Assembly: GCA_903813345.2 (NCBI GenBank)
Contig: CAIIXF020000009.1
Coordinates: 16,889,759 to 16,953,758, forward strand
DNA length: 64,000 bases
Direction: 5' to 3'
Source: Owenia fusiformis
Taxonomy: Eukaryota > Annelida > Polychaeta > Sabellida > Oweniidae
The notes beneath the pieces are model-generated. The model had not been told where the DNA came from, searched no databases, and worked only from the letters and a program-made list of their open reading frames with translations. Shown piece after piece: positions 22,101 through 63,606 of this stretch; position 1 is the stretch's first letter; each line of letters starts with the position of its first letter. A program made the position numbers and the translations under genes.

Positions 22101-25100
22101 CTGCCACTGAGACTTATAATTCTGATACAGTTTTTTTGTTATCATCTTGATAAAAATATAATCATCATCGATCTTTTGAGTTTCCCAATATGAGAATAAA
22201 TCACATTTTTTCAAAATATCAGTGATTTTGTTTGACCAAGTGCCTTTAAAACCCAGTTGGCTCATTTCACGGTCATGCGTATATGTTTTATGAAGAATGT
22301 TTCCAGGTGATAGATGAATTAAACGGAGCCAATATTTAATTAACTTAATTTCAAAACGTATTTTTAATGGGTAACGTCCTAATTCTCCATAGACTGCTGG
22401 TGTTGCTGTTGATTTTTTAACACCTAATAAACTTTTAAGAAAAGATAAATGCATTGTCTCTATTGTCTTAAGATGTTTTTCATTAATCCACACCTCTGAA
22501 GCATAAGTTAGGATAGGTTCAACTAAAGAGTCAGAAAGGTGCAATGCAAGATTAACTGGAATGTCATTAAATTTTTTATATTGCTGTTTAACTTTAAACA
22601 AAGCTTTTCTTGCCTGCTCTTTTAGATAACATACATGCTGGTCAAAATTCTTAGTTTTGCTGAATACACATCCTAGATATTTATATTGCTCAACACTTTC
22701 TATTGCACTATCATTGAATGTGAAAACTATATCAAATTTTGAGTTAAAAACAATTGATTTTGTCTTTATTGTGTTAACTATAAGATGATATCTCTTACAA
22801 AAATCAAAAAGACAATTGAGCAAAGTTTGGGCGCCATCTTTACTATTTGACATCAAAATAAGATCGTCAGCCCAAAGTAAGTGGTTTAACATATTTCCAT
22901 CAAATTGAATACCATTTTCTTTTGGTAGATTATCTTTTAAATCATCAAGGAAATGGTTGAATAAATAAGTACTAAGTACAGAGCCCTGCATTACTCCGAC
23001 ATTTGTTTCGAAAGCAGGGGTGACACCTTCTTTTAATTTCAGGCATGCTTTTGACTTTTCATACATACTTGTTATAACCTTGAACATGTTAGAATCAGGT
23101 GATATTCCCGATTTACATAGTTTATACATAAGTGCCACTCTATTTACATAGTCAAATGCTTTTCGAAAATCTATCATAATACAGACTAATGGCTTTTTCA
23201 TAAGCTTATAACGGGTTATGATTGTGTTTAAAATATATAAATTATCTGTTGTTTGATGTCCAGATTTATAAGCACCTTGAAGTGGATCCTGAATATCTAA
23301 CATTTCGGCATTAAAAACAAGTCTGTTTTGTATTACTCTATCAAAGATATTTCCTATACATGCTAAGACATTTATTCCCCTATAGTTATCAGGATTAAAT
23401 CTACAACCTTGTTTAAAGAGAGTTGTTAACATACCTATACTCCATTCATTAGGGTAATCACCATGAAAAAAGATGTGATTAAAAAGGGATGTAAATTCAG
23501 GAACTAATATACTGCAATTTTTAATGATATTAGAAGGTAACCCATCAATTCCAGGAGCTTTGTTAGCTTTAACTTTATTAAGAGCAGCATATACTTCAAA
23601 TTCTTTTATACTGCCATTAAGGACTTCATGACTTATTCTTATTTCCCCTGTGCAAACACCATTTGTATCATATTCATCAATAAATAATTGCATCTCTTTT
23701 AATGCTACGTCATCAAAATAGTCAATTTTGGGGTTCTTACCCAACTTTTCAAATGCACAAAAAAGTTCTGATGCCTCAATAGGGATTTCATTTGTATTAC
23801 TGCTTCCTGGAATACTGTTTATCATTTTCCAGAATTCTGTTGGATTTTGAGATTTGAAAGAAATGAGAGATTTTAATAGATTTGACTGATATGCTCTTTT
23901 TTCATGTTGTTTAGTTTGATTGTACTTTCTCTGTAAATCAGCAATAATGTTATTTGGTAGCTTCTGCTTAATGGCAGAATGTAAATCCTTTTTCAATTTC
24001 TTGCATTCACTATTAAACCATGGGTTCATTGGGAACTTTTTAGTACTGTTCTTTAGATGTTTAAGTGGGAATATCTTATCAGAAGTGTCATATATTACAT
24101 GTNNNNNNNNNNNNNNNNNNNNNNNTACTCATGTTTAAGGTCTCATGGAAGTTAACAGGAAGTGACAAAACAAAAAATGACAAAGCCATGCTGGATTTTG
24201 AAAATTTTTTGAACCAAGATAACAGAGTTCTGTTTGGACCTCCAGTCAGTTTAACTAGTTCCACATATCATTTACATGACCAGGAACACAGTTGAAATGG
24301 TCAGAATGACCATAAACATGATAGAATAACCTTTTCAGCCCTCTGAAAATGTGACTAAAAAATAGCTAAGAGTAGGTGCTCAGGAAAGGTCACTGAACAG
24401 AATCTTTTGACTTTTTCAGAAAATGTGCCCAATATATTGCTCTAAATGATACAATTCAAAAAAATTTGATATCATTCTTAGAAAAAGAAAAAATTGAAAA
24501 AAACTGAATTGAAAATCGATCTATTTTCCTTTTTACTACAGCCATTATTGTTTCAGACGATTTTTTAAAATTTCAAAGATTGTGTCATTTAGAGCAATAT
24601 ATTGGACACATATTCTGAAAAAATCAAAAGATTCTGTTCATTGACCTTTCCTGAGCACCTACTTTTAGCTATTTTTCAGTCACATTTTCAGAGGGCTAAA
24701 AAGGTTATTTTATCATGTTTATGGTCATTCTGACCCTTTCAATTGTGTTCCTGGTCATGTAAATGATATTTGGTACAAGTTAAACTGACTGGAGGTCCAA
24801 ACAGAACTCTGTTATCTTGGTTCAAAAAATTTTCAAAATCCAGCATGGCTTTGTCATTTTTTGTTTTGTCATTTCCTGTTAACTTCCATGAGACCTTAAG
24901 AGACTGTAGTAAACAATCTGAGTTGGTATTTGAACCAACATCAACATAAAATTTCTCAAGTAAACCATTGTTAATATTAGCATCCAATAGCTCAGTGAAT
25001 TGTTTCTTTAATGTAGGATCCCATTTAAAGTAAGAGTAAGGTAAATTCTGCATGTTTTTGCTGGCTCTATCTTTAATTTTGAACTGACCTAGGTTGAAAT

Positions 25101-28100
25101 TAAAATGTATAGGACAGTGGTCAGAATCCGGATGCCGTTCATGTACTTTAAAGTCTGAAATTGTGTTGAGAATATCAGCTTGAACTGCAACATAGTCTAA
25201 TACAGATTTCCCTTTACTTGGATCTAAATCATTTTCATTTATATATCTATAGTATGTAAAGTGACCAATATTTTTATCATGAAAGAATCTCCCATTTAGT
25301 ATTCTTAAATTAGATGCCTTGCATAAACTTATGAATTCATTGCCATGTGTCTGGCTTATTGCCTTTAGATTTTTATCCATTGAGACACGATTATGAAGAG
25401 AGGCATTTAATTCATGATGATTATTTATATGGTGGTCATTTAAAAAATAAGAATTGGTAAACTGATCATTTGATCAATGAACATCAATATTCAAATCTGA
25501 CAACTGGGCAGTACGAGCGTTCATATCTCCACATATGATTGTTTTACCAGATAGTTGATAAGAAGCAATCGATTTCTCCAAGATGTCAAAATTGTCAAAA
25601 TTTTCATAAGTTGAACCTTTATGTGGCATATAAACAAAGCATATATAAATATCATTCTCTAAATTATATAAAGAAGACTTAACTCTTATCCATACAAAGA
25701 AATCATGAGTCTGTTTTGACACCTCAATTGAACTATACAATTCATCCTTTATGAAGACAGCAATGCCTCCAGAATAAACATTTGAGTTACTATTTTTAGA
25801 CTTTCTTGCCAGATTATGTACAGTATAACCATTAAATGATAAGCTGTCACATGGATCTAACCATGTCTCGCTTAACAGGATCACTGCATATTTACTGAAA
25901 AGCTCATAAATATCACATCCATCATATAATTTATCAGAAATTCTGTTAATATTCCAAAATAGAAAATTTATATCTTCTTGACTTGTATTATCATTTGTTT
26001 GGTTTAAATGTGCTTTTGTGTTGTTGTCAGTTGATTTGAGCCTATAGCGCAGATCATGCGACTTGGCATTCAACTGTGTTGTTACAGAACTAGAAAATTG
26101 AATACTATTTACATTTTGGGAAACCTGACCTGATGTGGTGTTCAAATGTACATTGTGAGGGCCTAAATCAAAGTTTACATCACCTTCACTTGTATTATCA
26201 TTTGTTTGGTTCAAATGTGCATTTATGTTTTTCTCAGTTGATATGAGCCTATAGCGCAGATCCTGCGACTTGGCATTCAACTGTGTTGTTACAGGACTAG
26301 AAGATTGAATACTATCTACATTATGGGAAATCTGACCTGATTTGGTGTTCAATTGCATATTGTGAGGGTTTGAATCAGAATTATTTACAGTCTCATTATC
26401 TATATATAATGAGGCTTCATTTATCATCATATGATTTGATTCATGGAAATGAATAGCATTGCATTCAATCTCATTACAAGAGTCACTCATACATTCTGTG
26501 TCTATGATACTATCACACTGATCAGTGTTTATAACTTGAGCCCAGTTCGAGGGTAGTGAGGGTTTCCAATTCTTGCTGCATCTGCATAGGAGTTGTGTGT
26601 TGAATTAATGATAGACAACATCGCATCTACCAACCGAGTTCTTCCAGTGTGATTAAAGTGGAGTTTGTCGTTAAAAAGTATGTTCATGTTGGGGTTCTGT
26701 GATGTTGAATCATTTATTCTGTTGATATTAATGAAATGGAAGCCTTTTTTCATGGCAAAAGACTCCATCTCTCCATTGACATGGTCAATTTTGATATTCA
26801 TTTGTTTGACTTCTTGTGGTTTGGCATGATCTCCCCGGTGATGCAGTCCACACAAGGTTATTTTAGAAGTTGGATGCTGGTTTTTGGCTGTCATTGCAAG
26901 GTTTTTTAACTCATAAATAATGGTTTGTGCAGAGTCATCTTTTACATTGTTTGTTCCAAAACCGAGGAATTTGTGATCTGTTGATCTACCTATGTCACCT
27001 TGTTGTATGACTCGGGTTGCATATTCAATGTTAGCACCACTATATACTGATGAAGTCACATTCATGCTTTTCCCTTTTGATCTAGCATTCATAATACCCG
27101 CCAATTTCTTCCCATTTGAAGAGTACATTATATGGACAGAAGTAGGGAGCTGCTTGTGACCATTGTTGAATTCCCTTGGTGTTGGCTTAGGGGGGTTCTT
27201 TGGAGCAACTTTAGCTGCTTTGTTAGAGGGTCTCTTGTTGGTAGTTGGTGAGATACCTTCTTTGTCATGGGTGGGTAATCCCTTTGAAGCAGAGTTTGGG
27301 GGTGTATTTATGACAGGCAATGAGGTATTCTTAGTGACAGAGGTCTTGGAAGTCCTGGTCTTTGAAGTTGGTCGTCCCTTTGGAATAACTGTTGGGGGTG
27401 TCATTGATTGTGGGAGTGACTGATTGAAATCATGACAACCCATCTGTTGAAATCTCTCTATAAGAGCGACATTTTTTCTGTGTTGGGTTGCAAGATCTGC
27501 TTTTAACCCCTGTATTGTCGTAATTTGCCACTTCTCATTTAACTCATAGCATTCTAGCTTAGTTGCTATATCTCTCATCTCTTGCTCATGAAGTTGTTTT
27601 GCCATCTTGATGTCATCTTCACTCTTCTTGTCAGCTGCTTCAAGCCTATAGTGCAGATCCTGCAACTTGGCATTCAGCTGAATTATTTGTCGACTATGTT
27701 CCACAGACTTCTCTTCAAGTCTCTTTTCAAGAGATATAGTCCTCGTCCTAAGTTTTTTGTTTTCACTTTGTAACTCTAGTGTTATGCCCGTGTTTTCAGG
27801 TTTTGAAGTAGATTCTGTCTGAGTAGGAGATTTATTTGACAATTTGACTGTTGCTGGTTGTGGTTCATTCTGAGAAAGTGGTTCTTTGATATCTGGCTGA
27901 GTTTCTGGAATAACAGTAGGCTGAATAAGGGACTGAGATAAAGGTTCTGGGATGGGTTCATCAGTGTCAGTTTGAGTGTTGGGTATAGTATCATTACCCA
28001 AGAAGAAGATAATGCTGTCCTCACCAATGTCTATTTCCTCAGACTGGCTAATGAAAATATCCTCTTGCGTCTGTGCTGGTGATGTTCTACATGGTGTTGA

Positions 28101-31100
28101 TGTAGATGGCAGAGATGTAGAGTATGAGTCAGAGGTAGGAGTTCGTTTCAATGAAATTAATGTACCTTTGATCAAATCAAAATCATTGTCTCTCCAATCC
28201 TGTAGTTCTTCTCCAAAGACAGTGATAATGCCCGAATCACCAATTTCCACTGTCACATGATTTAATACGGTTATTTTAGTTCCATATTTGATCCGTGTTT
28301 TTGTTGTTTTCATACTTTTTCGCTGATAGAACTGCTTGAAAGCCTCTAACCACAAAAGTGTTCTTTCTGTGTAGAATACCAGACTCATAAACTCATCATC
28401 TAAAACAAGTACACCTGTGTTTTCCACATCCTTATATTCAAAATTCTCATGCAATGTCTCTGGGTTTTTCTTAAGAGTTCTCATTGTTTGCTTCTTTGTA
28501 TTCCTTCTATTCTTGCCCTTGGCATCAGGTGTTGAGAATGTTTTAGTGCATGTACGTCGAGTTTCTCGGTCTGCCATTTTTCTCAGAGATAAGTTAGTTT
28601 ATATACATTTATGATCACCCTGTATACTATGTATTATATCCAAATGTTGTAAATAGTTTCACTTTCTTCCAAGTTCAATATATAGGTATGTTTACAAGTT
28701 CAATATGTAGGTATGTTTGTATATTTGGCTATTCAATTCACCTCCCTCAGTTTATATACAAATTTTTAGATACTTAAAGTAATTAAATGGCTGTTCCATT
28801 TACTCCTCTCCAATTATGAAAAACAATGGAATGGCTGTTCCATTCACTCCCTGTAGGCTTTACACATTTTTTCATGTATATTTTGCTCACTATATATACT
28901 TCCTAAATTATATTTTCTTAAATTTCCTTCTGTCATTAACATAAAGATTTATTCCAGGTTATTGTTTCCATATTGTCCTCTTATATGTTTATCTTATGCT
29001 TTTCAAAAGTTTTTCCAAAAAATTCAAAAAAAAAAAAAAATTTTCCTTTGTTAAAACTCAGAACTTTTTCTTGCTAATTTCCTTGTAGCTAATGTCCACA
29101 CTATTGTTTTAATTAGTCCAATGTGTTCTCTGTAACTTCATGTATAATCCAAATATAATTACTTTCCTCAAACTGTTCTTAAACACTCTTTAGATATGAT
29201 ATTAATGTGAGCAAAATTATACTAGGTACTTGATAAGCCAACTATGGTGTTATTTGGATCAAAATCACAGTTTTATGTATGCCCTTTCCAAAAGCAGTCT
29301 TCGATGATCGACGCACTAGGAGTTTTCCAGCACTTTTCATATTAGGTAAACTTTACTCCTCAAAAGCGAAAAAACTTAGCTTCTTATATCACAAGATAGT
29401 CACAATTATTTAGCCTCGGGGATTGTTACAATTTTGAAAATTCGCGGAGGTTAAAGCCGACATTTGCGGGACTTCGCGGGACATTGCGGGACACGCGAAT
29501 TAGCCAAATTTTGATCAAATTCGCGGGAAAATCCCGCCATTCGCGGGACACTTGACAGCTCTGCAAGACGCCAACTGTGGCAATTTAGAACAATATCGCA
29601 GTTTTTAAAGTTACAGCAAAAATCATAAAATAGCGTGTAAAGGCTGCCATTTTTCAAGATGGCTGCCATGAGCTTCTTTGACATTTCTAGCTTTATTTAT
29701 GTCCTATATAATTCTTTTACATTTAAAACATATTGCTATTTCAGTTTTACATATTGTACCAAAATTACTGTAAAATTGGCACTAAAATGGCCATTTTGAA
29801 AATAGATTTTTGAGCAGAACTTCTACCCCCATAAGCTATATGTATACAAAATATGAACAAAATATCCTAGATGCAAGTAGAAATAATCTTGATTTACATC
29901 ATTAAAAATTCACAATTCAGTCAAACTGATGTCAACGGTATCTGAGTTATTGCCCGGACAGATGGACGGATGGATGGATGTACGTACGGACGTCTTTAGG
30001 TTGCTGCTTGTATTGTGTTAGCTTGAGAATATCTTTATTCTTTTTACTCTTTGTTCTTCTATTATTTGGTATTTATTTTAATCTTAGCCATGTGGTATAC
30101 CTCACCGATGTGCCATATCAAACCACTGTGTCCCGTGTTTGGCGGACGGAGGCAATCCCTATATCCCTCCGAACTTCGTTCGATGGGATAAAAAGTATAA
30201 AAGTGGTAAAAATTACCTTCTGTTGGTCATAATGATAGGTTTTCCTAACCCAAGTGATGGAGTTTGGAATTGGTTGAGATTCAATGAGATAGTTCACATC
30301 ATTGCCTTGAAGGGCACCTAGCGCTGCAGCTCCACCAGGGCTCTCAAGGATCTTAGAGTCAAATACAACACTCATGAACTGAAAGGAATTAAAAGTTTGA
30401 CTTATAGCTGTCATTCTCCTGATTCTATGAATGTAGGGGCTCCAGACAACATAAACGCTTCACTCAAAAATTCTCATTTCACATAATTTTCTTAGTTTCC
30501 CTGATCAAGTACAAATTGTCAGCTCATGGGCGTCAGAAGGGGGGGGGATTGTTGAAACAGCAAAAGTGCAGTATTTTACTTTCTGGGAGTTTCAAATTTC
30601 TCGCATTTATTTATTCAATAATTTCCGCTTGCAGACAGTTATTTCCATTGTACCAATGCCATCATTGAAAGATTTTCAAAATGAAAAAGATTGTATTCAA
30701 TTTTTTTTGTTATTCTAGTATATGCGTAGAGTATTTTCATTTGAAAGCATTTAGGTATAATTTAATTTGGAAATATGTGTACGTTCTATTGGACTAAAAA
30801 TTAAATGAATCAGCTGTTTAAAACATAAAAATGTTGCATGTAGCAAAACAGAAGAATGCTGCATTGACACAGGTAGGGATCAAACAGCACTCTCCTGTAA
30901 AAACTGCTAATAGGGAGTTCAGGCTTGCAATGTTTTTCACAACCTAAATGTGAACGGAAAATATGTATAGATTGGTGTTTCAATTTTATATGCAAGCTAA
31001 AACTCCCTATTATCTGTACATTTCACATTTTAAATACAGGGTGGTCAAAAAAACTGGAAACCCTAACACCATTTTCCTAATATCTTTGTCATTTTAAGAA

Positions 31101-45400: not shown

Positions 45401-48400
45401 CTTATGAACGAGTCATGCAAGATACTAGAACTAGTAAAGTAATTTATTGGATAAGTTGATTTCTGATGGATCTGGATAAAATATGTTTCAAAACTTTGTG
45501 AATACTAGATAACTACATTTAGGCAGATATAGTATCTTGATATATTTGGCTATCATTCGTTTAAAATACGTTCCTAAACCTATGAAGACGTTAGGTGAGA
45601 AATATTGCTATTGTACGTTCGAAAAGTATTTGGTTGTATTTTGTAGTTTACAAGTTACCCATGAACTTTCGTAGGCTAAACATTAAATAATTAACGTCTT
45701 GACTTAGCATATTTAGCCTAATTTTGCAATGATGTTAACGTGATTCCAATGTTATGTTGTCGTGATTCACAGAGGTTGCGACAAGATTCGTTTTAAGAAA
45801 TTGTATTTTTAGATAATATCCCCTAATTTTCGGAGAACTGGGTTTCGGATAACTGGGTTTCGGAAAATTGGGTTTCTGAGAATTGGATTTCGGACAACTG
45901 GGTTTCGGACAACTGGGTTGACCCCCCCAAAGACACTTACACCTGCTAATTGCCACTTTACAAAGAGTTTATTCAAGCAAGAAAACTGTTTGTAAAAACG
46001 TAATTTCGGGTTGAACATGGTACCCACCATTCTGGTTACCATAGCAACCATATCACAGGACCAATCAAAATTGAGATCCCAAATTTGAACATATAATGTA
46101 TAAATGTATAACACATATGTGTACCAAGTTTCATTGTAAAAGTCCTATTTTCCCTGAAGTTATGGCATCAATTGCAAAACGTTTTGAACCACCTAAGTAT
46201 GATCTGTATGTATTACATTATAATATGATATGGTATAATATCTTATTACATATATCATGTTGAATCATTTATCATTGCACATCATATCATATATCATGAT
46301 CATATCATATCATGTGTCATATTACATCATATATCATGTCATATCATATATCATACTATATCACATATCATATTCATATCATATATCATAACTTATATCA
46401 CAATATACCATACCAAATATCACATCATATACAGGGCCCTCACCAGGAAATACAGGGGGGGGGAGATTTCCCAAAGATGACCTTTCATATTGGCACGTTC
46501 GAACTGAACTGAATCTCCCAATGTGCGTTGTAGTTTTATGAGTATTCTCTACAAGTTTGGATCGAGTAACTTCAATAGTATTATCGTAGGTTTAAAATGA
46601 TGATATTGAACTGATGTTAACGCCATTTCCACGATTTCAAGTTTTACTTTGCGCATGTGCAGCCCTGAGAGAACACATGCTCATGATTGTTCACGTGATC
46701 GCATCCTGTAATTTGATTGGAGATGATGCAGGAGACGACATAATGGGGAATCCCCGAATATGATAGAATATGAAAGAATTATGGGAGCTACTCACTTCTT
46801 CTGAGGAAATATTTAGGGTGTGGTGCTTACATCTATAGAATAACCAGTCAATCATATTTATTTTATATTTAATCCTTTTTACATGCTATAATTGTATAAT
46901 CAGTCAAGTTTAGACTATGGAAATAGTCATGATTTGCCAATAGGGTGTGAAGGGAGCTAAATAGAGTGTGGCCATTTTTAGAATAGGCGAACTTTTGAAC
47001 CAGGAGTCATAGGTTTTTTCTGTATTGATGTTAAACAAAAATAACTTAAAACAGGAATCCTAGTGATAGAGGATTGACAGAGGATTTAAAAAGAGCCAAT
47101 TGTTGACAGACGGACAGACAGACAGATGGACGGACAGACAAACGGACAAGTGAGTGATTGCAATAGCTCATAAAATAAGAATAACATGTCACTCTATATG
47201 AGGGTTGCATCAAAATGGCCTGAAGTACACATCTACCTAAAGACAGATCACGGCAATCCTTGTTAGTCTTTTTGGCGTGGTTTCAGATGTTGGCATCCAA
47301 GTGAGAAATGCCTCTAAAAAGGCTGGTGGGTCATCAAGGAACAAGCGTAAGAACACACCTGGTAAACATAGACGCCTGGTATTGTCAGATGGAGAGTTTG
47401 CTCAGCAAGGGAACATCTTATGTACTCAACTAGGCCTGAAATACTATCCTGGAGAGAATGTAAGTAGAACATACTAAGAACATACTAGAACATGCTAAGA
47501 ATGCTATACTGATTGTTCAAGTTGTTATGTTACAGGTTGGATGTGTTAAGAATGCTATATTGATTGTTCATGTTGTTATGTTACAGGTTGGATGTGCTAA
47601 GAATGCTATATTGATTGTTCATGTTGTTATGTTACAGGTTGGATGTGCTAAGAATGCTATATTGAATGTTCATGTTATTATGTTACAGGTTGGATGTGCT
47701 AAAAATGCTATATTGATTGTTCATGTTATTATGTTACAGGTTGGATGTGCTAAGAATGCTATATTGATTGCTCATGTTATGTTGCAGGTTGGATGTGCTT
47801 AGAATGCTATACTGATTGTTCATGTTGTTATGTTACAGGTTGGATGTGCTAAAAATGCTATATTGATTGTTCATGTTGTTATGTTACAGGTTGGATGTGC
47901 TAAGAATGCTATATTGATTGTTCATGTTGTTATGTTACAGGTTGGATGTGCTAAGAATGCTATATTGAATGTTCATGTTGTTATGTTACAGGTTGGATGT
48001 GTTAAGAATGCTATATTGATTGTTCATGTTGTTATGTTCCAGGTTGGATGTGCTAAGTATGCTATATTGATTGTTCATGTTGTTATGTTACAGGTTGGAT
48101 GTGTTAAAATGCTATTGATTGTTCATGTTGTTATGTTACAGGTAGGATGTGCTAAGAATGATATACTGATTGTTCATGTTGTTATGTTACAGGTAGGATG
48201 TGCTAAAAATGCTATATTGATTGTTCATGTTGTTATGTTACAGGTTTGATGTGCTAAAAATGCTATATTGATTGTTTATGTTGTTATGTTACAGGTTGGA
48301 TGTGCTTAGAATGCTATACTGAATGTTCATGTTGTTATGTTACAGGTTGGATGTGCTTAGAATGCTATATTGATTGTTCATGTTGTTATGTTACAGGTTG

Positions 48401-51400
48401 GATGTGCTTAGAATGCTATACTGAATGTTCATGTTGTTATGTTACAGGTTGAATGTGCTAAAAATGCTATATATTGATTGCTCATTTTGTTATTTTACAG
48501 GTTGGATGTGTTAAGAATGCTTTATTGATTGTTCATGTTGTTATGTTACAGGTTTGATGTGCTAAAAATGCTTTATTGATTGTTCATGTTGTTATGTTAC
48601 AGGTTGGATGTGCTAAGAATGCTTTATTGATTGTTCATCTTGTTATGTTACAGGTAGAATGTGCTAAGAATGCTATACTGATTGTTCATGTTGTTATGTT
48701 ACAGGTTGGATGTGCTAAGAATGCTATATTGATTGTTCATGTTGTTATGTTACAGGTTTGATGTGCTAAGAATGCTATATTGATTGTTCATGTTGTTATG
48801 TTACAGGTTGGATGTGCTAAGAATGCTATACTGATTGTTCATGTTGTTATGTTACAGGTTGGATGTGCTAAGAATGCTATATTGATTGTTCATGTTGTTA
48901 TGTTACAGGTTTGATGTGCTAAGAATGCTATATTGATTGTTCATGTTGTTATGTTACAGGTTAGGGGTGAGACGAGTCGAAAAAATCCGATTCGAGTCGA
49001 ATCTGATTCGAGTCAGAAAATGACGATTCGAGTTTCGAATCCGTTTCGAGTCGCGCGAAGTGCGAACAACATCGCTTTTGACCGTTCGTATTTTTAATGC
49101 GTCAATGGTGGAAAGCCGGAAATATAAACAAACACAATTCGTCGTAAGTTTATTCTGATTTTATTACATATATTCTTTCATTTATGTGTACATACAATAT
49201 AATAATTTAATACAAGCATATCCAAGTCATTGAAACTTATATATTCAACGCAATATCGAGTAAAAACATGCATATTGACAGTATTTTTCTGAATTTTTTT
49301 ATTTTTTCGAATTTTTTTCTCAACTCGAAAATGATTCGATTCATCAACTTCTACTCGATTCGACTTGACTCGAAGCCCCTAACCCGCGAGTCCTCGACTC
49401 ATCGGGTTGTCGTCTCACCCCTATTACAGGTAGAATGTGCTAAGAATGCTATACTGATTGCTCATGTTGTTATGTTCCAGGTTGGATGTGCTAAGAATGC
49501 TATATTGATTGTTCATGTTGTTATGTTACAGGTTGGATGTGCTAAGAATGCTATACTGATTGTTCATGTTGTTATGTTACAGGTTGGATGTGCTAAGAAT
49601 GCTATATTGATTGTTCATGTTGTTATGTTACAGGTTTGATGTGCTAAGAATGCTATATTGATTGCTCATGTTGTTATGTTACAGGTTTGATGTGCTAAGA
49701 ATGCTATATTGATTGTTCATGTTGTTATGTTACAGGTAGAATGTGCTAAGAATGCTATACTGATTGCTCATGTTGTTATGTTCCAGGTTGGATGTGCTAA
49801 GAATGCTATATTGATTGTTCATGTTGTTATGTTACAGGTAGAATGTGCTAAGAATGCTATATTGATTGTTCATGTTGTTATGTTACAGGTAGAATGTGCT
49901 AAGAATGCTATATTGATTGTTCATGTTGTTATGTTACAGGTAGAATGTGCTAAGAATGCTTTATTGATTGTTCATGTTGTTATGTTACAGGTTTGATGTG
50001 CTAAGAATGCTATATTGATTGTTCATGTTGTTATGTTACAGGTAGAATGTGCTAAGAATGCTATATTGATTGCTCATGTTGTTATGTTACAGGTTGGATG
50101 TGCTAAGAATGCTTTATTGATTGTTCATGTTGTTATGTTACAGGTTGGATGTGCTAAGAATGCTATATTGATTGTTCATGTTGTTATGTAACAGGTAGAA
50201 TGTGCTAAGTATGCTATATTGATTGCTCATGTTGTTATGTTACAGGTTGGATGTGCTGAAAATGCTATATTGAATGTTCATGTTGTTATGTTACAGGTTG
50301 AATGTGCTAAGAATGCTATATTGATTGCTCATGTTGTTATGTTACAGGTTGGATGTGCTAAGAATGCTATATTGATTGTTATCCCATCGAACGAAGTTCG
50401 GAGGGATATAGGGAACGCCCCGATTTTATTCATATTTTGTACACATATACCCTATGGGGGTAGAAGTTCTGCTCGAAAGCCGATTTTCAAAATGGCTGCT
50501 CATTTAAAAATGGCGGCCATTTTAGTGCCGATTTTACAGTAATTTAGGTGCAATATGTAAAACTGTAATAGCAATATGTTTTAAATGTAAAAAAATTATA
50601 TAGGACATTAATAAAGCTAGAAATGTAGATATTAAAAAAGCACATGGCAGCCATCTTGAAAAATGGCGGCCTTTACTCGTTATTTTACGATTTTTGCTGT
50701 AACTCGAAAAGTAGTGGAGCGATTTTGTTCATATTTGGTATGTGAATACTATAGGCATGGCACACTGTCTAATGACACTTTTGGTAGAAGGCGGTCATTT
50801 TTCAAAATGGCCGCCATTTTAACGTATTTTACTATTACTCGAAAAGTAGTGGAGCGATTTTATTCATATTCGGTATGTGAATACTGTAAGCATGGCACAC
50901 TGTCTAATGACACTTTTGGTAGAAGGCGGCCATTTTGAAAAATGGCGGACATTTTGAAAAATGGCTGCCATTTTAACTTATTTTACTATAATTCGAAAAG
51001 TAGTGGAGCGATTTTGTTCATATTTGGTACGTGAATACGTATCAGCATGGCACACTGTCTAATGACACTTTTGGTAGAAGGCGGCCATTTTTCAAAATGG
51101 CCGCCATTTTTACGTTTTTTACTATAACTCGAAAAGTAGTGGAGCGATTTTGTTCATATTTGGTATGTGAATATTATAAGCATGGTACACTGTCTAATGA
51201 CACTTTTGGTAGAAGGTGCCCGTTTTGATAAATGTTCGATGGGATTCGCTACGCTTTGGCGTTGCCGTTGTTCTGGTTCATGTTGTTATGTTACAAGTAG
51301 AATGTGCTAAAAATGCTATATTGATTCAGACTTGCCAACCTCCCGTTTTTTACGGAAATCTCCCGTAAATTTTTTGTTTTTCTGTAAAAAATACCAAACT

Positions 51401-54400
51401 CCCGTACCGTTTTCATCCGTAAAAACTCCAGTACCGTATTTCTACTAAAATCTTCCGTAATTTAAAAAAAAAATATATGGCCTTAAAATCTCCCGTATTT
51501 TTGCTGAAATCTCCCGTAAAATCTCCCGTATTCTGGTATAACTCCCGTAAAATCTCCCGTATTATTGGTATAACTCCCGTAAAATCTCCCCGTTTTTTTT
51601 GCTGTCGAAATCTACCGTATTTAAAAGGAATTTGACAAATGTGTGACCTTGATTATTGCAGGCACGCTTCTTTCTTTTACTCCAAGAAGGATTGGCACTT
51701 TCATAAATAACTTAAAGTACTTCATTCCCATGATTCAAATTGCTTTTCTGCGATCAGTTCGGTATAAGTTTGCACACCAAATGTCCACAAACGGGCCAGT
51801 TCATATTCTGTCATACTTCTGTCGGGAGAATACATTTTTTTTATATGGGCGCTAAACAAAATGTTCCCGCAATATAAGGCGCATTATGGGTAGGGACTGC
51901 TGTGAAATAATGAACGTAAGTGACATCTATCTTAGATTATAAGTTCTAATTAATTTATTAACTGCGTATGCGTCATAATAATTTCAACCAAGATTTAATA
52001 CCGTAAAAACTCCCGTTTTTTCAAAATCTACCGTAAAAACTCCTGTTTTTTCAGAAATCTACCGTAAAAATTCATATTTTTTCAAAATCTACAGTAAAAA
52101 CACCCGTTTTTTCCGAAACCTACCGTAAGAACTCCCGTTTTTTCCGAAATCTATCGTAAAAACTCCTGTTCTCTCAAAATTTACCGTAAAAACTCCAGTT
52201 TTTCAAAATCTAAAGTAAAAACTCCCGTATTTTAAGAAATCTACCGTAAAAACTCCCGTTTTTCAAAATCTACCGTAAAAACTCCTGTTTTTTCAAAATC
52301 TAAAGTAAAAACTCCCGTTTTTTAAGAAATCTACCGTAAAAACTCCCGTTTTTTCAAAATCTACCGTAAAAACTCCAGTTTTTTCCGAAATCTACCGTAA
52401 AAACTCCAGTTTTTCAGAAATCGACCGTAAAAACTTCTGTTTTTTCAAAATCTACCGTAAAAACTCCCGTTTTTTCAGAATCTACTGAAAAACTCCCGTT
52501 TTTTCAGAAATCTACCGTAAAAACTCCAGTTTTTTCAGAAATCTACCGTAAAAACTCCTGTTTTTTTTAAAATATACTGCAAAAACTCCTGTTTTTTCAA
52601 AACCTACCTCAAAAACTCCCCATTTTTAATGAAATCTTCCTTAAAAAAAGTCGTTTTTTAAAATGTACCGCGAAAAATACACATTTTTTTCAAAATTTAC
52701 CGCAAAAACTCCCGTTTTTTAAATCTCCCATAAAAACTACCGTTTTTTTTCAAAAATCTCCCGTAAAAGTACCGCAATTTTTTTTAAACCCCCAAAAATT
52801 TTTCATTTTGGGTTGGCAAGTCTGTTGATTGCTCATGTTTCTATGTTACAGGTAGGATGTGCTAAGTATGCTATATTGATTGCTAATGTTATGTTCCAGG
52901 TTGGATGTGCTAAGTACAGTATGCTATATTGATTGTTCATGTTATGTTACAGGTTGGATGTGTTGGTATGTGAATACTATAAATGTTGTATAGGGGTGAG
53001 ACGACAACCCGATGAGTCGAGGACTATAGTGTTTATAGATTTTGTTCATATTTGGTACGTGAATACGTATCAGCATGGCACACTGTCTAATGACACTTTT
53101 GGTAGAAGGCGGCCATTTTTCAAAATGGCCGCCATTTTTACGTTTTTTACTATAACTCGAAAAGTAGTGGAGCGATTTTGTTCATATTTGGTATGTGAAT
53201 ATTATAAGCATGGTACACTGTCTAATGACACTTTTGGTAGAAGGTGCCCGTTTTGATAAATGTTCGATGGGATTCGCTACGCTTTGGCGTTGCCGTTGTT
53301 CTGGTTCATGTTGTTATGTTACAAGTAGAATGTGCTAAAAATGCTATATTGATTCAGACTTGCCAACCTCCCGTTTTTTACGGAAATCTCCCGTAAATTT
53401 TTTGTTTTTCTGTAAAAAATACCAAACTCCCGTACCGTTTTCATCCGTAAAAACTCCAGTACCGTATTTCTACTAAAATCTTCCGTAATTTAAAAAAAAA
53501 ATATATGGCCTTAAAATCTCCCGTATTTTTGCTGAAATCTCCCGTAAAATCTCCCGTATTCTGGTATAACTCCCGTAAAATCTCCCGTATTATTGGTATA
53601 ACTCCCGTAAAATCTCCCCGTTTTTTTTGCTGTCGAAATCTACCGTATTTAAAAGGAATTTGACAAATGTGTGACCTTGATTATTGCAGGCACGCTTCTT
53701 TCTTTTACTCCAAGAAGGATTGGCACTTTCATAAATAACTTAAAGTACTTCATTCCCATGATTCAAATTGCTTTTCTGCGATCAGTTCGGTATAAGTTTG
53801 CACACCAAATGTCCACAAACGGGCCAGTTCATATTCTGTCATACTTCTGTCGGGAGAATACATTTTTTTTATATGGGCGCTAAACAAAATGTTCCCGCAA
53901 TATAAGGCGCATTATGGGTAGGGACTGCTGTGAAATAATGAACGTAAGTGACATCTATCTTAGATTATAAGTTCTAATTAATTTATTAACTGCGTATGCG
54001 TCATAATAATTTCAACCAAGATTTAATACCGTAAAAACTCCCGTTTTTTCAAAATCTACCGTAAAAACTCCTGTTTTTTCAGAAATCTACCGTAAAAATT
54101 CATATTTTTTCAAAATCTACAGTAAAAACACCCGTTTTTTCCGAAACCTACCGTAAGAACTCCCGTTTTTTCCGAAATCTATCGTAAAAACTCCTGTTCT
54201 CTCAAAATTTACCGTAAAAACTCCAGTTTTTTCAAAATCTAAAGTAAAAACTCCCGTATTTTAAGAAATCTACCGTAAAAACTCCCGTTTTTCAAAATCT
54301 ACCGTAAAAACTCCTGTTTTTTCAAAATCTAAAGTAAAAACTCCCGTTTTTTAAGAAATCTACCGTAAAAACTCCCGTTTTTTCAAAATCTACCGTAAAA

Positions 54401-55935
54401 ACTCCAGTTTTTTCCGAAATCTACCGTAAAAACTCCAGTTTTTCAGAAATCGACCGTAAAAACTTCTGTTTTTTCAAAATCTACCGTAAAAACTCCCGTT
54501 TTTTCAGAATCTACTGAAAAACTCCCGTTTTTTCAGAAATCTACCGTAAAAACTCCAGTTTTTTCAGAAATCTACCGTAAAAACTCCTGTTTTTTTTAAA
54601 ATATACTGCAAAAACTCCTGTTTTTTCAAAACCTACCTCAAAAACTCCCCATTTTTAATGAAATCTTCCTTAAAAAAAGTCGTTTTTTAAAATGTACCGC
54701 GAAAAATACACATTTTTTTCAAAATTTACCGCAAAAACTCCCGTTTTTTAAATCTCCCATAAAAACTACCGTTTTTTTCAAAAATCTCCCGTAAAAGTAC
54801 CGCAATTTTTTTTAAACCCCCAAAAATTTTTCATTTTGGGTTGGCAAGTCTGTTGATTGCTCATGTTTCTATGTTACAGGTAGGATGTGCTAAGTATGCT
54901 ATATTGATTGCTAATGTTATGTTCCAGGTTGGATGTGCTAAGTACAGTATGCTATATTGATTGTTCATGTTATGTTACAGGTTGGATGTGTTGGTATGTG
55001 AATACTATAAACATGGCACACTGTCTAATGACACTTTGGTAGAAGGTGGCCATTTTGAAAAATGGCTGCCATTTTAACGTATTTTACTATAACTCGAAAA
55101 GTAGGGGAGCGATTTGTTCATATTTTGTATGTGAATACTTTAAGTATGGCACAGTGTCTAATGACACTTTTGGTAGAAGGTGGCCATTTTGAAAAATGGC
55201 TGCCATTTTTGCTATATACTTTGTTTGTAAAAATGCCAGCCATAACTGTTAGATGGGATTCGCTCATTTGGCGTTGCCGTTGTTCTGGTTCATGTTGTTA
55301 GGTTACAGGTTGGATGTGCTTAGAATGCTATACTGATTGTTCATGTTGTTATGTTACAGGTTGGATGTGCTAAAAATGCTATATTGATTGTTCATGTTGT
55401 TATGTGACAGGTTTGATGTGCTAAGAATGCTATATTGAATGTTCATGTTGTTATGTTACAGGTTGAATGTGCTTAGAATGCTATACTGATTGTTCATGTT
55501 GTTATGTTACAGGTTGGATGTGCTAAAAATGCTATATTGATTGTTCATGTTGTTATGTTACAGGTTGGATGTGCTAAGAATGCTATATTGATTGTTCATG
55601 TTGTTATGTTACAGGTTAGATGTTTGTTCATGTTACAGGTTGGATGTGCTAAGAATGCTATATTGATTGTTCATGTTGTTATGTTACAGGTTGGATGTGC
55701 TAAGAATGCTATATTGATTGTTCATGTTATTATGTTACAGGTTGGATGTGCTAAGAATGCTACATTGATTGCTCTTGTTCCTGGTACAGTGAAGCTGTCT
55801 ACAGAGTTTGTCAATCCTTATCCAGAGAGTCCTCTTTACCAGCCAGTTAAAGATGGTGTCATAATCAAAAAGACATTTGTACATGTATTACCAGATCCTC
55901 AACATCAAAGATTTAAGTTAAAATCAATGACTTGA
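39152..55935 (+). CDS. MRPL27: MRPL27, mitochondrial ribosomal protein bL27m (3 exons)
   Basis: bL27m is a large-subunit mitoribosome protein; its family sits near the peptidyl transferase centre. Exons 39152-39212, 47287-47459 and 55741-55935 join (phases 1, then 0) into 142 residues plus stop, close to the human 148. Exon 1 encodes a basic, hydrophobic, acid-free start (MAAPMFFKNLKLFSNIFKIQ) typical of mitochondrial presequences. Exon 2 has the L27 signature ASKKAGGSSRNKRKNTPGK, QQGNILCTQ and YYPGEN. Exon 3 continues VGCAKNATLIALVPG and ends KTFVHVLPDP...FKLKSMT. Intron 1 is 8.1 kb of inverted-repeat elements. Intron 2 is 8.3 kb and almost wholly a tandem array of the exon 3 acceptor junction plus insertions, so exon 3 could in principle start at an earlier in-frame copy; 55741 is chosen because it is the last acceptor and gives normal family length. 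It is head to head with EME1. Confidence 0.94.
39376..40803. repeat. Inverted-repeat element of CATGACCGTG words
   Basis: The left end TATCTGTTGCAAGACTAACGC and the right end GCGTTAGTCTTGCAATAGATA are inverse; both arms continue for about 150 bp (GGCGTAACCGTCACCATGTT). It hosts the TTAA element at 39781. In MRPL27 intron 1. Confidence 0.75.
39781..40416. mobile_element. TTAA-flanked element, GGTAGTTAAACAC ends
   Basis: TTAA at 39777-39780 and 40417-40420; inverted ends GGTAGTTAAACAC / GTGTTTAACTACC. The interior is tandem ~40-bp words such as CATGACCGTGACAATGTAAT and AGTATTGCAAGGCCTGGC. It sits inside a larger inverted repeat built from the same words. Confidence 0.8.
41405..44160. repeat. 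Large inverted repeat in MRPL27 intron 1
   Basis: Arms about 41405-41770 and 43720-44160 are inverse (shared GAGAGTTGATTGGTTGAAAC, TTGCAAAACTTGGAGTTATA read on opposite strands). The 6-bp-TSD element at 42188 lies between. No transposase identified. Confidence 0.75.
42188..42676. mobile_element. 6-bp-TSD hAT-like element, GTCACGCAAAT type
   Basis: Ends CAGGCCTGTCAAC and GTTGACAGCCCTG with perfect TAATAG on both sides (42182-42187, 42677-42682). The interior has repeated GTCACGCAAATACGC words on the left, TTGGCCAAAGGTGTTCAAA words on the right, and a run of 33 C at 42464-42496. In MRPL27 intron 1. Confidence 0.85.
44828..45928. mobile_element. Inverted-end element of CAGTTGTCCGAAACC words, 8-bp TSD
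   Basis: Left CCCAGTTGTCCGAAACCC, right inverse with an extra TTGACCCCCCC. AAAGACAC flanks both sides (44820-44827, 45929-45936). The ends are two to six copies of a ~15-bp word. The interior is AT-rich with a Lys-rich chance ORF. Confidence 0.7.
46196..46435. repeat. CATATCATAT-type AT-rich minisatellite
   Basis: Irregular tandem words CATATCATATATCATG for about 240 bp in MRPL27 intron 1. No unit boundary is stable. Confidence 0.8.
46930..47170 (+). repeat. Dispersed repeat ending in GGACAGAC tract
   Basis: Shares GAATAGGCGAACTTTTGAACC, ATAACTTAAAACAGGAATCC and GACAGACGGACAAGTGAGTG with 5280-5630 and parts of 60500-60900. The copy at 5630 and the one at 850 end in a hairpin (GCTCACCATGTGAGC). 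Confidence 0.6.
47287..47459 (+). CDS. MRPL27: MRPL27 exon 2 (bL27 signature)
   Basis: 173 nt between acceptor GGTTTCAG and donor GTAAGT. It carries the conserved Lys-Lys-x-Gly-Gly-Ser-Ser start of mature bL27 and ends at PGEN in phase 0. Confidence 0.95.
48964..49423. mobile_element. TA-flanked MITE inside the MRPL27 array
   Basis: Ends are GGGGTGAGACGA and its inverse TCGTCTCACCCC, each next to TA. The ends carry many copies of words like GATTCGAGTCGAATC. A truncated end of the same family is at about 52991-53028. No transposase seen. Confidence 0.7.
50382..51276 (+). mobile_element. Helitron/Helentron-like non-autonomous element, subfamily II
   Basis: The 5' end TCCCATCGAACGAAGTTCGG is followed by AGGGATATAG, itself an imperfect hairpin. 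The interior has ~120-bp repeats with GGCCATTTTTCAAAATGGCC and GAAAAGTAGTGGAGCGA. The 3' end has the small hairpin ACGCTTTGGCGT and terminates TTGTTCTGG. It sits in the 51-bp array, so the empty site is known: TT is found on both sides. A fragment of the same 3' end lies at about 55006-55286. Confidence 0.75.
51327..52824. mobile_element. 6-bp-TSD hAT-like element, CTCCCGTAAAA type (copy 1)
   Basis: Inverted ends CAGACTTGCCAACC / GGTTGGCAAGTCTG with TTGATT duplicated on both sides (51321-51326, 52825-52830); removing element plus one TTGATT restores the array unit. The interior is mostly ~30-bp tandem words of the form CTACCGTAAAAACTCCCGTT, plus a ~350-bp unique part around 51630-51990. No transposase. 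A second copy at 53355-54852 arose with the 2.0-kb duplication. Confidence 0.85.
53355..54852. mobile_element. 6-bp-TSD hAT-like element, CTCCCGTAAAA type (copy 2)
   Basis: Same ends, flanks and interior as the element 2028 bp upstream; it exists because of the segmental duplication, not a second insertion. Confidence 0.85.
55741..55935 (+). CDS. MRPL27: MRPL27 exon 3 with stop
   Basis: 64 codons plus TGA. The first ~10 codons (VGCAKNA...) are also the exon-like half of the 51-bp array upstream. From codon ~11 the sequence is unique and matches the bL27m C-terminus (KTFVHV). The reading frame is open back to about 55504 through earlier array copies. Confidence 0.93.
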   Translation, partial: VGCAKNATLIALVPGTVKLSTEFVNPYPESPLYQPVKDGVIIKKTFVHVLPDPQHQRFKLKSMT

Positions 55936-57229
55936 GCTGTATAAGTAATGGTATAAAAGAAGTGTTGTTTTACTTTTCAAAGGACATTTCATAATTTTAA
56001 ATTACACCAAATGAAAAACTATTTATTGGCATAAGGATTTCTGTGAATTGCTTTAATTTGGTGGTTTGATAACAACCTTCAAAATAAATCTCCGCCAACT
56101 TTTGAAAATGAAATGCCCAGTAATTTTCGTCCAGTGCCTTTTTCATGCATTGCCTTAAACATTAAAACTTTGGTTAAAAACTTGATTATATCATGGCTAT
56201 ATTGTCAATTTTTAACTATTTACAAAGATCTAAAGAGTTAGATAGTAGTCTAGATAAAACAATCTGATACCAGTAAAGATGAAATTGTGTTATCGGTGGT
56301 AAGCTGTGAAGTGAGTATTACAATTGATGATGGTAAATTATCCAAATTGAATAGTAGCTAAAATTTGCCCAATTTTCCAAATTCAATAGCACCAAATGAA
56401 AGCAATTCACAATACAAGATGGACAGATGAACTAAACTCAGTCTGTGGATGCCATTACCTTGCTGTGACATATTTAGTGACATATTTTAAATCAACACAC
56501 TGCATTATACATGTTATATAGAACACTGACTATGTAGCAAATACCATGTGTCAAATGTTTGGTTTTCCACATTAAAACTTTAAATTAAACATTTGCAAAG
56601 ATAACATAATAAACTATTTGTTGCTATTTATTGAAGTATGTGTTTATTCATTTTTTCAAGTACACTTCAAGTAATCAGGCATCTGATTCATTTGGATGAT
56701 TTTAAAAATTGTCGAATGAAAATTCCATCTCAAGGAACTAGAAGACACGCAGTAAATGGTACTTGAAGAGCAAAACACCAACTAGATTGATACTGTCTTA
56801 TCCTTGAGAGTTCAACAAGCCACACAACATAAATTGCATGTTTAATGGTCATCATGTAATTTATTCAGCACATAATCAGTTGTAGACACTAATCTGCCAA
56901 TAATATTAGTATGTTCTTATTACTTTGCTTGGAAATGAAAAATATTTGTGAAAAAATGTCCACACATTTATAAAGCAGTGGCCATCTTCGAAAATATTTT
57001 TGCATAAATCAATTTACTAATATCCATACATCTTTCAACCAAATATAAAGAAAATCTATCCACTAGTATTCAAGTTATTTTCTGGTTGGACAGACTGACA
57101 GACATTCTTGGGATAATTATTAACAATCATCATTTCATTCTTTTTAAATTTCAAAATGTCATACTAGAATGTACATTGGAATTCGATTTCAATTCTGATA
57201 CTAGCAGATTAATTTGACAAGATTCATTA
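55936..57229. other. MRPL27 3' flank, no gene seen
   Basis: AT-rich sequence with one candidate polyadenylation signal. No ORF with similarity and no clear repeat structure; 56940-57120 looks like a decayed dispersed repeat ending GGACAGACTGACAGAC. Confidence 0.5.
56083..56088 (+). promoter_or_regulatory. Candidate MRPL27 polyadenylation signal
   Basis: AATAAA 148 bp after the MRPL27 stop codon, at a usual distance for a short 3' UTR. No other evidence. Confidence 0.45.
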
Positions 57230-62640: not shown

Positions 62641-63606
62641 CTAGACAACAGCAACGCCAAAGCGTAGCAAATCCCATCAAACAGCCAGTGACAGTGTGCC
62701 ATGCCTATAGTATTCACATACCAAATATGAACAAAATCGCTCCACTACTTTTCGAGTTATAGTAAAAAATGTTAAAATGGCGGCCATTTTTTTAAATGGC
62801 CGCCATCTACCAAAAGTGTCTTTAGACAGTGTGCCATGCTTATAGTATTCACATACCAAATATGAACAAAATCGCTCAACTACTTTTCGAGTTATAGTAA
62901 AATACGTTTAAGTGGCTGCCATTTTTCAAAATGGCCACCTTCTACCAAAAGTGTCATTAGACAGTGTAGTGTACCATGCTTATAGTATTCACATACCAAG
63001 TATGAACAAAATCGCTCCACTACTTTTCGAGTTATAATAAAATACGTTAAAATGGCCGCCTTCTACCAAAACTGTCATTAGACAGTGTGCCATGCTTATA
63101 GTATTCACATACCAAATATGAACAAAATTCCATTACTTTTCGAGTTATTGTTAAATATGTTAAAATGGTGGAAAAATGGCCGCCTTCTACCAAAAGTGTC
63201 ATTAGACAGTGTGCCATGCTTATAGTATTCACATACCAAATATGAACAAAATCGCTCCACTACTTTTCGAGTTACAGCAAAAATCGTAAAATAACGAGTA
63301 AAGGCCGCCAATTTTCAAGATGGCTGCCATGTGCTTCTTAAATATCTACATTTCTAGCTTTATTAATGTCCTATACAATTTTTTTACATTTAAAACATAT
63401 TGCTATTACAGTTTTACATATTGTACCTAAATCACTTTTAAATGAGTGGCCATTTTGAAAATCGGCTTTCGAGCAGAACTTCTAGTCCCATAGGGTATAT
63501 GTGTACAAAATATGAACAAAATGGGGCCAATGGTATTTGAGTTATTGCCCGGACGGAAGGACGGAGGCGTTCCCAATATCCCTCCGAACTTTGTTCGATG
63601 AAACCA
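62641..63606 (-). mobile_element. Helitron/Helentron-like element, subfamily II
   Basis: Terminal CTAG at 62641 followed on the element strand by T. The hairpin is followed by five ~120-bp monomers with CCGCCATTTT words; the other end at about 63600 has a decayed TCCCATCGAAC. It lies upstream of the NTHL1 exons, probably in an NTHL1 intron. Confidence 0.75.

Follow-up and report, generated by a model that had tools for sequence, protein, structure and literature searches.

How can a gene be spliced correctly when the intron ahead of one of its exons is filled with tandem copies of its own 3' splice site? The question is raised by a locus of the annelid Owenia fusiformis, embedded in a window of 64,000 nucleotides (C9:16889759-16953758 of an assembly of 498,259,871 bases and 525 contigs; positions given here without a contig name are those of the window). 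The assembly has three matches to PF16915, the erythrocruorin linker domain, which is an annelid family; a search for COX1 yielded nothing. The initial annotation of this DNA had described an intron built from 55-60 copies of its own acceptor in the gene for the ribosomal protein MRPL27. The elements of the gene are the following:

47287-47459, plus strand: MRPL27 exon 2, coding from 47289, its start being inferred from the TTTCAG at 47281-47286
47460-47465, plus strand: GTAAGT, the donor of intron 2, read from the sequence
55741-55935, plus strand: MRPL27 exon 3 including the stop codon, placed by homology of the joined protein, with a single match in the assembly
56083-56088, plus strand: AATAAA, a possible poly(A) signal, read from the sequence

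The frame at 47289-47459 encodes the N-terminal portion of the ribosomal protein L27 (PF01016 of Pfam, Ribosomal_L27, E 7e-10), and exon 3 alone matched no Pfam family. When exon 2 is joined to exon 3 (55741-55932), a protein of 121 residues is obtained, whose residues 3-120 align, gap-free across the junction, with mammalian MRPL27 (E 5e-20); joining also lifts the L27 score to 64.1 bits, against 39.2 bits for exon 2 by itself. Judging from this homology, the gene is MRPL27 (bL27m), as initially annotated, and 55741 is the true boundary, i.e., the copy that adjoins the rest of exon 3, which is apparently the last coding exon. Exon 1 was sought in a simple search that turned up no convincing candidate. 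Intron 2 is in phase 0; the initial annotation had correctly placed the array between exons 2 and 3, and its donor at 47459 is the last base of exon 2, the GT of the donor itself beginning at 47460. It had also considered that MRPL27 might be supplied by another locus. The L27 family and exon 3 each gave a single match in the 498-Mb assembly, with both exons intact, and searches with the L27 profile and with exon 3 found no second MRPL27 locus in this assembly, which has gaps. Since the two exons are intact, their alignment is gap-free at the junction and no second copy was found, the correct splicing of MRPL27, presumably an essential gene, must be sufficient.

The copies of the acceptor were counted by a boundary-anchored scan of the junction between intron end and exon start, which yielded 66 unit boundaries from 47536 to 55741, true junction included, and thus 65 extra copies. 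They are arranged as follows:

47493-50380, plus strand: main array with 48 unit boundaries, exon-like starts at 47536-50348, mostly 51-nt units
47536, plus strand: first base after the first decoy acceptor, the use of which would give a 76-nt intron
55288-55740, plus strand: last array block from the boundary scan, nine decoy boundaries (55309-55690) followed by the true acceptor

Eight further, degenerate boundaries lie among inserts at 51297-54981, four in each copy of a duplication described below. The array is therefore real and slightly larger than the 55-60 copies first annotated; the 51-bp unit is confirmed, 51 of the 65 spacings being exactly 51 nt (four are 48, three 53 and one 24 nt, and the remaining six are long gaps at inserts). 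The unit does consist of the intron end plus about 30 nt of exon 3, its consensus sharing 31 of the first 33 nt with exon 3; the true junction (55740/55741) is indeed its last member, and the first decoy lies at the supposed distance of 76 nt from the donor. AG is kept at 64 of the 66 boundaries and GT follows all 66, so that 63 of the 65 decoys read AG|GT; the two boundaries that have lost the AG (TTACAA, at 51297 and 53325) are duplicates of one another. Forty-two distinct boundary sequences exist among the 66. The 51 regular units share a mean pairwise identity of 94.1% and vary at 17 of 51 positions, several of which have one variant in common in at least five units, as expected where exchange spreads variants. 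Neighbouring units are not more alike than others (lag-1 identity 0.942 versus 0.941 in permuted order, sd 0.003), so that no local homogenisation is apparent. Exon 3, which the unit matches, codes for conserved L27 sequence, and copying therefore went from the exon to the array. Searching with a pattern of 33 nt across the boundary (at most three mismatches) gave 53 reported forward matches in 498 Mb, all within the array, and none on the reverse strand, and the reversed control gave none either; being confined to the array, the pattern points to self-copies rather than chance. These comparisons support a derivation of the units from MRPL27's own acceptor and the start of exon 3.

The intron is made of such copies only in part, because it also harbors three inserts and a large tandem duplication, which are located as follows:

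48964-49421, plus strand: insert 1, within the array, with ends GGGGTGAGACGA and TCGTCTCACCCC (sequence and blastn within the window)
50383-51275, plus strand: insert 2, mobile-element-like, with approximate ends (blastn within the window)
51010-52983, plus strand: first copy of a 1,975-nt tandem duplication (blastn within the window)
51327-52824, plus strand: insert 3, with ends CAGACTTGCCAACC and GGTTGGCAAGTCTG and TTGATT on both flanks
53038-55011, plus strand: second copy of the duplication (blastn within the window)

Relatives of insert 2 were detected by blastn within the window at 62690-63527 on the other strand, and insert 3 contains 30-nt internal tandem repeats. The two copies of the duplication are 99.9% identical, with no mismatch and two gaps, and their junction (52984-53037) includes 36 nt copied in inverted orientation from the end of insert 1 (49389-49424). 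Such an inverted filler is of the sort that template switching could leave, and it speaks for a real, recent duplication rather than a slip of the assembly.

In order to compare the decoys with the true site, splice sites were scored with a textbook-like matrix rather than a trained model, and with 26 control introns resolved out of 51 exon pairs of chaperonin, carrier and proteasome genes. The true acceptor (55740/55741) scores 3.63, and 57 of the 63 decoys with AG score at least as high, so that the expectation that the decoys look as good as the real acceptor holds. All 63 lie above the median (2.37) of 16 chaperonin control acceptors; in the larger set of 26 introns the acceptor median is 2.79 and 58% of the acceptors fall below the true one, these control scores being raised by a choice made partly with the same matrix and at least one control (MITO C9, acceptor score -3.5) being doubtful. 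The donor of intron 2 scores 3.30, above 23% of the 26 control donors with the same textbook-like matrix. Of the 66 units, 50 have a branch-point-like YTNAY at -24 and 58 have one at -17. Having an AG, a T-rich tract and a branch-point-like TTGAT, each decoy would be expected to work as an acceptor. The first block holds 15.7 acceptor-like sites per kb (score not lower than the true one minus 0.5), as compared with 1.65 per kb on that strand beyond 47.0-56.0 kb. The 51 regular units were examined for constraint on their acceptor positions and none was found, the variability of TTACAG|GT not being significantly below that of the remaining positions (5 mismatches in 8 positions, P 0.17). As regards length, the control introns span 149-7,091 nt (median 375, n=26); the introns of the first two decoys (76 and 127 nt) would be shorter than all of them, and those from the third decoy on (at least 178 nt) would be inside the control range.

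If a decoy is assumed to be joined to exon 2 with no further splicing, a stop is met before exon 3 in 58 of the 63 readings of decoys with AG, and on this ground a coding tandem repeat was rejected: the array is not kept as coding sequence. The five last decoys (55513, 55564, 55615, 55639 and 55690) read in frame to the stop of exon 3 and would give a longer protein. The stretch 47839-48246 is an open frame within the array, and short in-frame exons are conceivable through the four units that carry the stronger donor-like CAGGTAGGA.

Arrays of this type are known. According to PMC3087553, amphioxus "mirages" are tandem repeats of the 3' end of an intron and the 5' part of the next exon; the one of BflGb6 is described with six and three units of 150-160 bp in two haplotypes, its unit includes the start of exon 2, and many units carry AG/GT signals. 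The same source cites earlier cases, Adh3 and others, and the Adh3 data together with RT-PCR results are said there to suggest no interference with regular splicing; PMC3902484 adds the case of PGBD5 and cites Adh and troponin C. In the MRPL27 array, too, the units join the end of the host intron to the adjoining part of the exon, the copy placed by homology at the true boundary is followed by the rest of the exon, and most decoys keep their splice signals. The array is therefore a very large mirage, known in kind, and the statement that no host gene of this sort had been described does not stand, both on account of the amphioxus cases (PMC3087553, PMC3902484) and of others in the worm's own genome. 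It shares with BflGb6, BflGb9 and Adh3, where both types of boundary occur, the nature of a minisatellite of intron/exon boundaries with AG/GT signals (PMC3087553); unlike BflGb6, it counts 65 extra copies of mostly 51 bp and, unlike the amphioxus mirages, it is hosted by an annelid and precedes an apparently last coding exon. The 60- and 108-bp tandem repeats of lancelet PGBD5 likewise span 5' and 3' splice sites, but their copies are described as few and imperfect (PMC3902484). Other systems are related more loosely. Intron gain by tandem genomic duplication also involves a duplication carrying splice signals, but there a new intron arises, whereas in MRPL27 an existing one has grown (PMC4974935). 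The ABCA7 intronic VNTR is another intronic tandem repeat linked to splicing of its host gene, whose units, in the description given, are not stated to be copies of its own acceptor (PMC5954066). Decoy exons in retained introns also offer possibly competing, unproductive splice sites, but are described with no tandem array of their own acceptor (PMC8706089). No such array outside lancelets was among the matches listed in a partial coverage of the literature, mostly judged by title and start of the abstract.

Within the genome of O. fusiformis itself the MRPL27 array is not alone. A sample of 50 segments (189,329 bases) from chaperonin, carrier and proteasome loci of the same assembly was inspected by eye and with an ungapped in-register rule (15 or more matches out of 20 on each side), and contained these further boundary arrays:

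C11:35576738-35577720: eight decoy acceptors in register (ungapped rule)
C11:134865-135400: three decoy acceptors in register (ungapped rule)
C8:21853866-21854200: one decoy acceptor in register (ungapped rule)
C1:58969600-58970200: one decoy donor in register (ungapped rule)
C10:1069150-1069590: one decoy acceptor in register (ungapped rule)
C3:18449461, a proteasome exon: four decoy acceptors before it (by eye), in an array that extends beyond the segment read
C4, near 4300760, a carrier exon: one decoy acceptor before it (by eye)
C4:4301172-4301457: 65-nt acceptor-like array (by eye), whose true exon may lie beyond the segment read
C11:141615-142089: degenerate 28-nt donor-like array of about 16 copies (TGCTAAAGGTGAGTACTTGCC type), directly after a chaperonin exon (by eye)
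C10:13376945-13377199: weaker, degenerate donor repeat (by eye)

The ungapped rule found no in-register decoy at the two carrier sites or in the 28-nt donor array of C11. Some decoys of these mirages show no difference from the true site across 40 nt, and most of the spacings are not multiples of three (83/89, 86, 104 and 154; 96 is). Exon edges were not enriched in tandem copies, which were detected at 9 of 228 edges and in 158 of 1,864 tests made at 932 randomly drawn positions (Fisher P 0.014, edges having fewer, with null positions that are not independent). These positions were kept away from the listed exons; of 1,500 draws, 568 were discarded because an exon match was no more than 200 nt away. 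The automatic edge test is crude. It overlooked the carrier mirages and the degenerate donor repeat of C10 that inspection by eye had revealed, scored one array (C11:134945-135344) twice, from adjacent matches, and in many cases settled on an AG or GT of an array that is not the splice site. An array at C3:20462110, where a long open carrier frame has its 3' end, was counted by this test and was not called a mirage. On the simplest reading, short tandem duplications abound in this genome, and those that happen to span splice sites are tolerated. Two of the carrier matches, at C483:308525-311197 on a small contig and at C2:17735848-17738577, cover (nearly) the same profile ranges with near-equal scores; one is possibly an alternative haplotype, in which case a comparison of alleles is conceivable.

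The explanation that we consider probable is that the MRPL27 array is a neutral minisatellite without a function of its own, and that the exon-adjacent site is used in enough transcripts. Its basis is what is directly established on the anatomy and self-derivation of the array, the single gene found, the retention of AG|GT, the scores of the decoys and the similar arrays elsewhere. A short stretch comprising the 3' end of intron 2 and the first 31-39 nt or so of exon 3 would have been tandemly duplicated, slippage or unequal exchange would have led to the approximately 65 extra copies, and mobile elements and one large duplication would have interrupted the array. Enough transcripts would then join the donor to 55741, the copy followed by the remainder of exon 3 and the poly(A) site, and the decoys would be neutral passengers, costing some mis-spliced RNA. 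Sufficient use of 55741 would follow from the gene being intact and single, and the choice might be made through definition from the side of the exon and the poly(A) site, helped by the introns of the first two decoys being shorter than any control intron. Most readings of the array meet a stop, its acceptors bear no sign of constraint, and most spacings elsewhere do not preserve the frame, which is counted in favour of neutrality. The scores of the decoys, 57 of which equal or exceed the true site, count against it, and so do the introns from the third decoy on, whose lengths lie in the control range. According to PMC9225289, sites closest across the exon are preferred where the flanking introns are large, which is a point in favour; competing 3' sites at least 20 nt apart show an overall upstream preference, significantly reduced under exon definition. 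This upstream preference predicts real use of the decoys and thus counts against neutrality as well; some leakage into them is a fair expectation. The invariant GT and near-invariant AG do not discriminate, since functional retention or a young, homogenised array would both give them.

The opposite view would be that a sizeable fraction of transcripts have the donor taken up by decoys and end as stop-containing or unspliced RNA, so that decoy copy number sets the output of MRPL27. The decoys are intact and strong, their readings mostly stop early, upstream acceptors are favoured overall in one data set (PMC9225289) and decoy exons have been tied to intron retention (PMC8706089); however, the acceptor positions bear no sign of constraint and tandem copies at exon edges are no commoner than elsewhere in the non-coding DNA of the genome, and we regard this regulation by copy number as unlikely. 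The protein might also be lengthened by repeats of some 17 residues (VGCAKNAILIVHVVMLQ), through use of the last five decoys or of in-frame runs, for example 47839-48192, which ends at a CAG|GTAGGA resembling a donor. This agrees with the reading of those five decoys through to the stop of exon 3 and with the open frame at 47839-48246, where CAGGTAGGA reaches a donor score of 5.82 at 48142 and 48193; on the other hand, the insertion would fall inside the L27 domain, acceptor 55690 shortening the profile match from 1-69 to 1-57, most of the array is closed by stops, and five consecutive open units seem unremarkable in a rough estimate, so that such isoforms are very unlikely.

The AG|GT of 64 boundaries would further allow the units to act as zero-length exons in a stepwise (recursive) splicing towards 55741. 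This seems extremely unlikely, because the commonest unit start, GTTGGA (39 of 66), has a donor score of 1.49, with only one of the 26 control donors lower, and steps of 51 nt are far below the shortest control intron; recursive sites were rejected on the former ground, the control donor median being 4.80 and the stronger CAGGTAGGA being present in 4 of 66 units. A copy number due in part to misassembly, or a gene that is not expressed, finds an argument in the 1,975-nt stretch repeated at 99.9%, but is highly improbable in view of the many distinct boundary sequences, of the 36-nt inverted copy at the duplication junction and of two exons that are intact and single in the assembly. The neutral mirage remains the most likely reading for MRPL27.

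If mirages occurred genome-wide in the lineage of this annelid, which is distant from amphioxus, and if many constitutive genes had perfect decoy acceptors or donors on the intron side of the true sites that were almost wholly ignored, the choice being made from the side of the exon or poly(A) site, which we advance as a tentative possibility, then 63 decoys about equal to the true site would be ignored in MRPL27, the first only 76 nt past the donor. The further mirages in the small sample of chaperonin, carrier and proteasome genes point to decoys being common in the genome of this worm and present outside lancelets, and they bear on intron growth, intron gain and automatic gene annotation. 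The MRPL27 intron represents a natural experiment, in which one donor faces 64 near-equal acceptors with introns of 76 to 8,281 nt in a gene that is single in the assembly. Pairing on the intron side predicts the use of the first copies and pairing on the exon side that of the last, which makes this intron a sharp test of upstream versus exon-side rules of acceptor choice.

In the rest of the window, LINE-like frames occur on the minus strand at 21690-28598, that at 21693-24095 matching a reverse transcriptase (PF00078), the only family named in a Pfam search with nine long frames of the window other than those of MRPL27. At 6666-7645, where no gene was identified, a strong 52-nt minisatellite is present in 19 copies, with a higher-order period of 206 nt.
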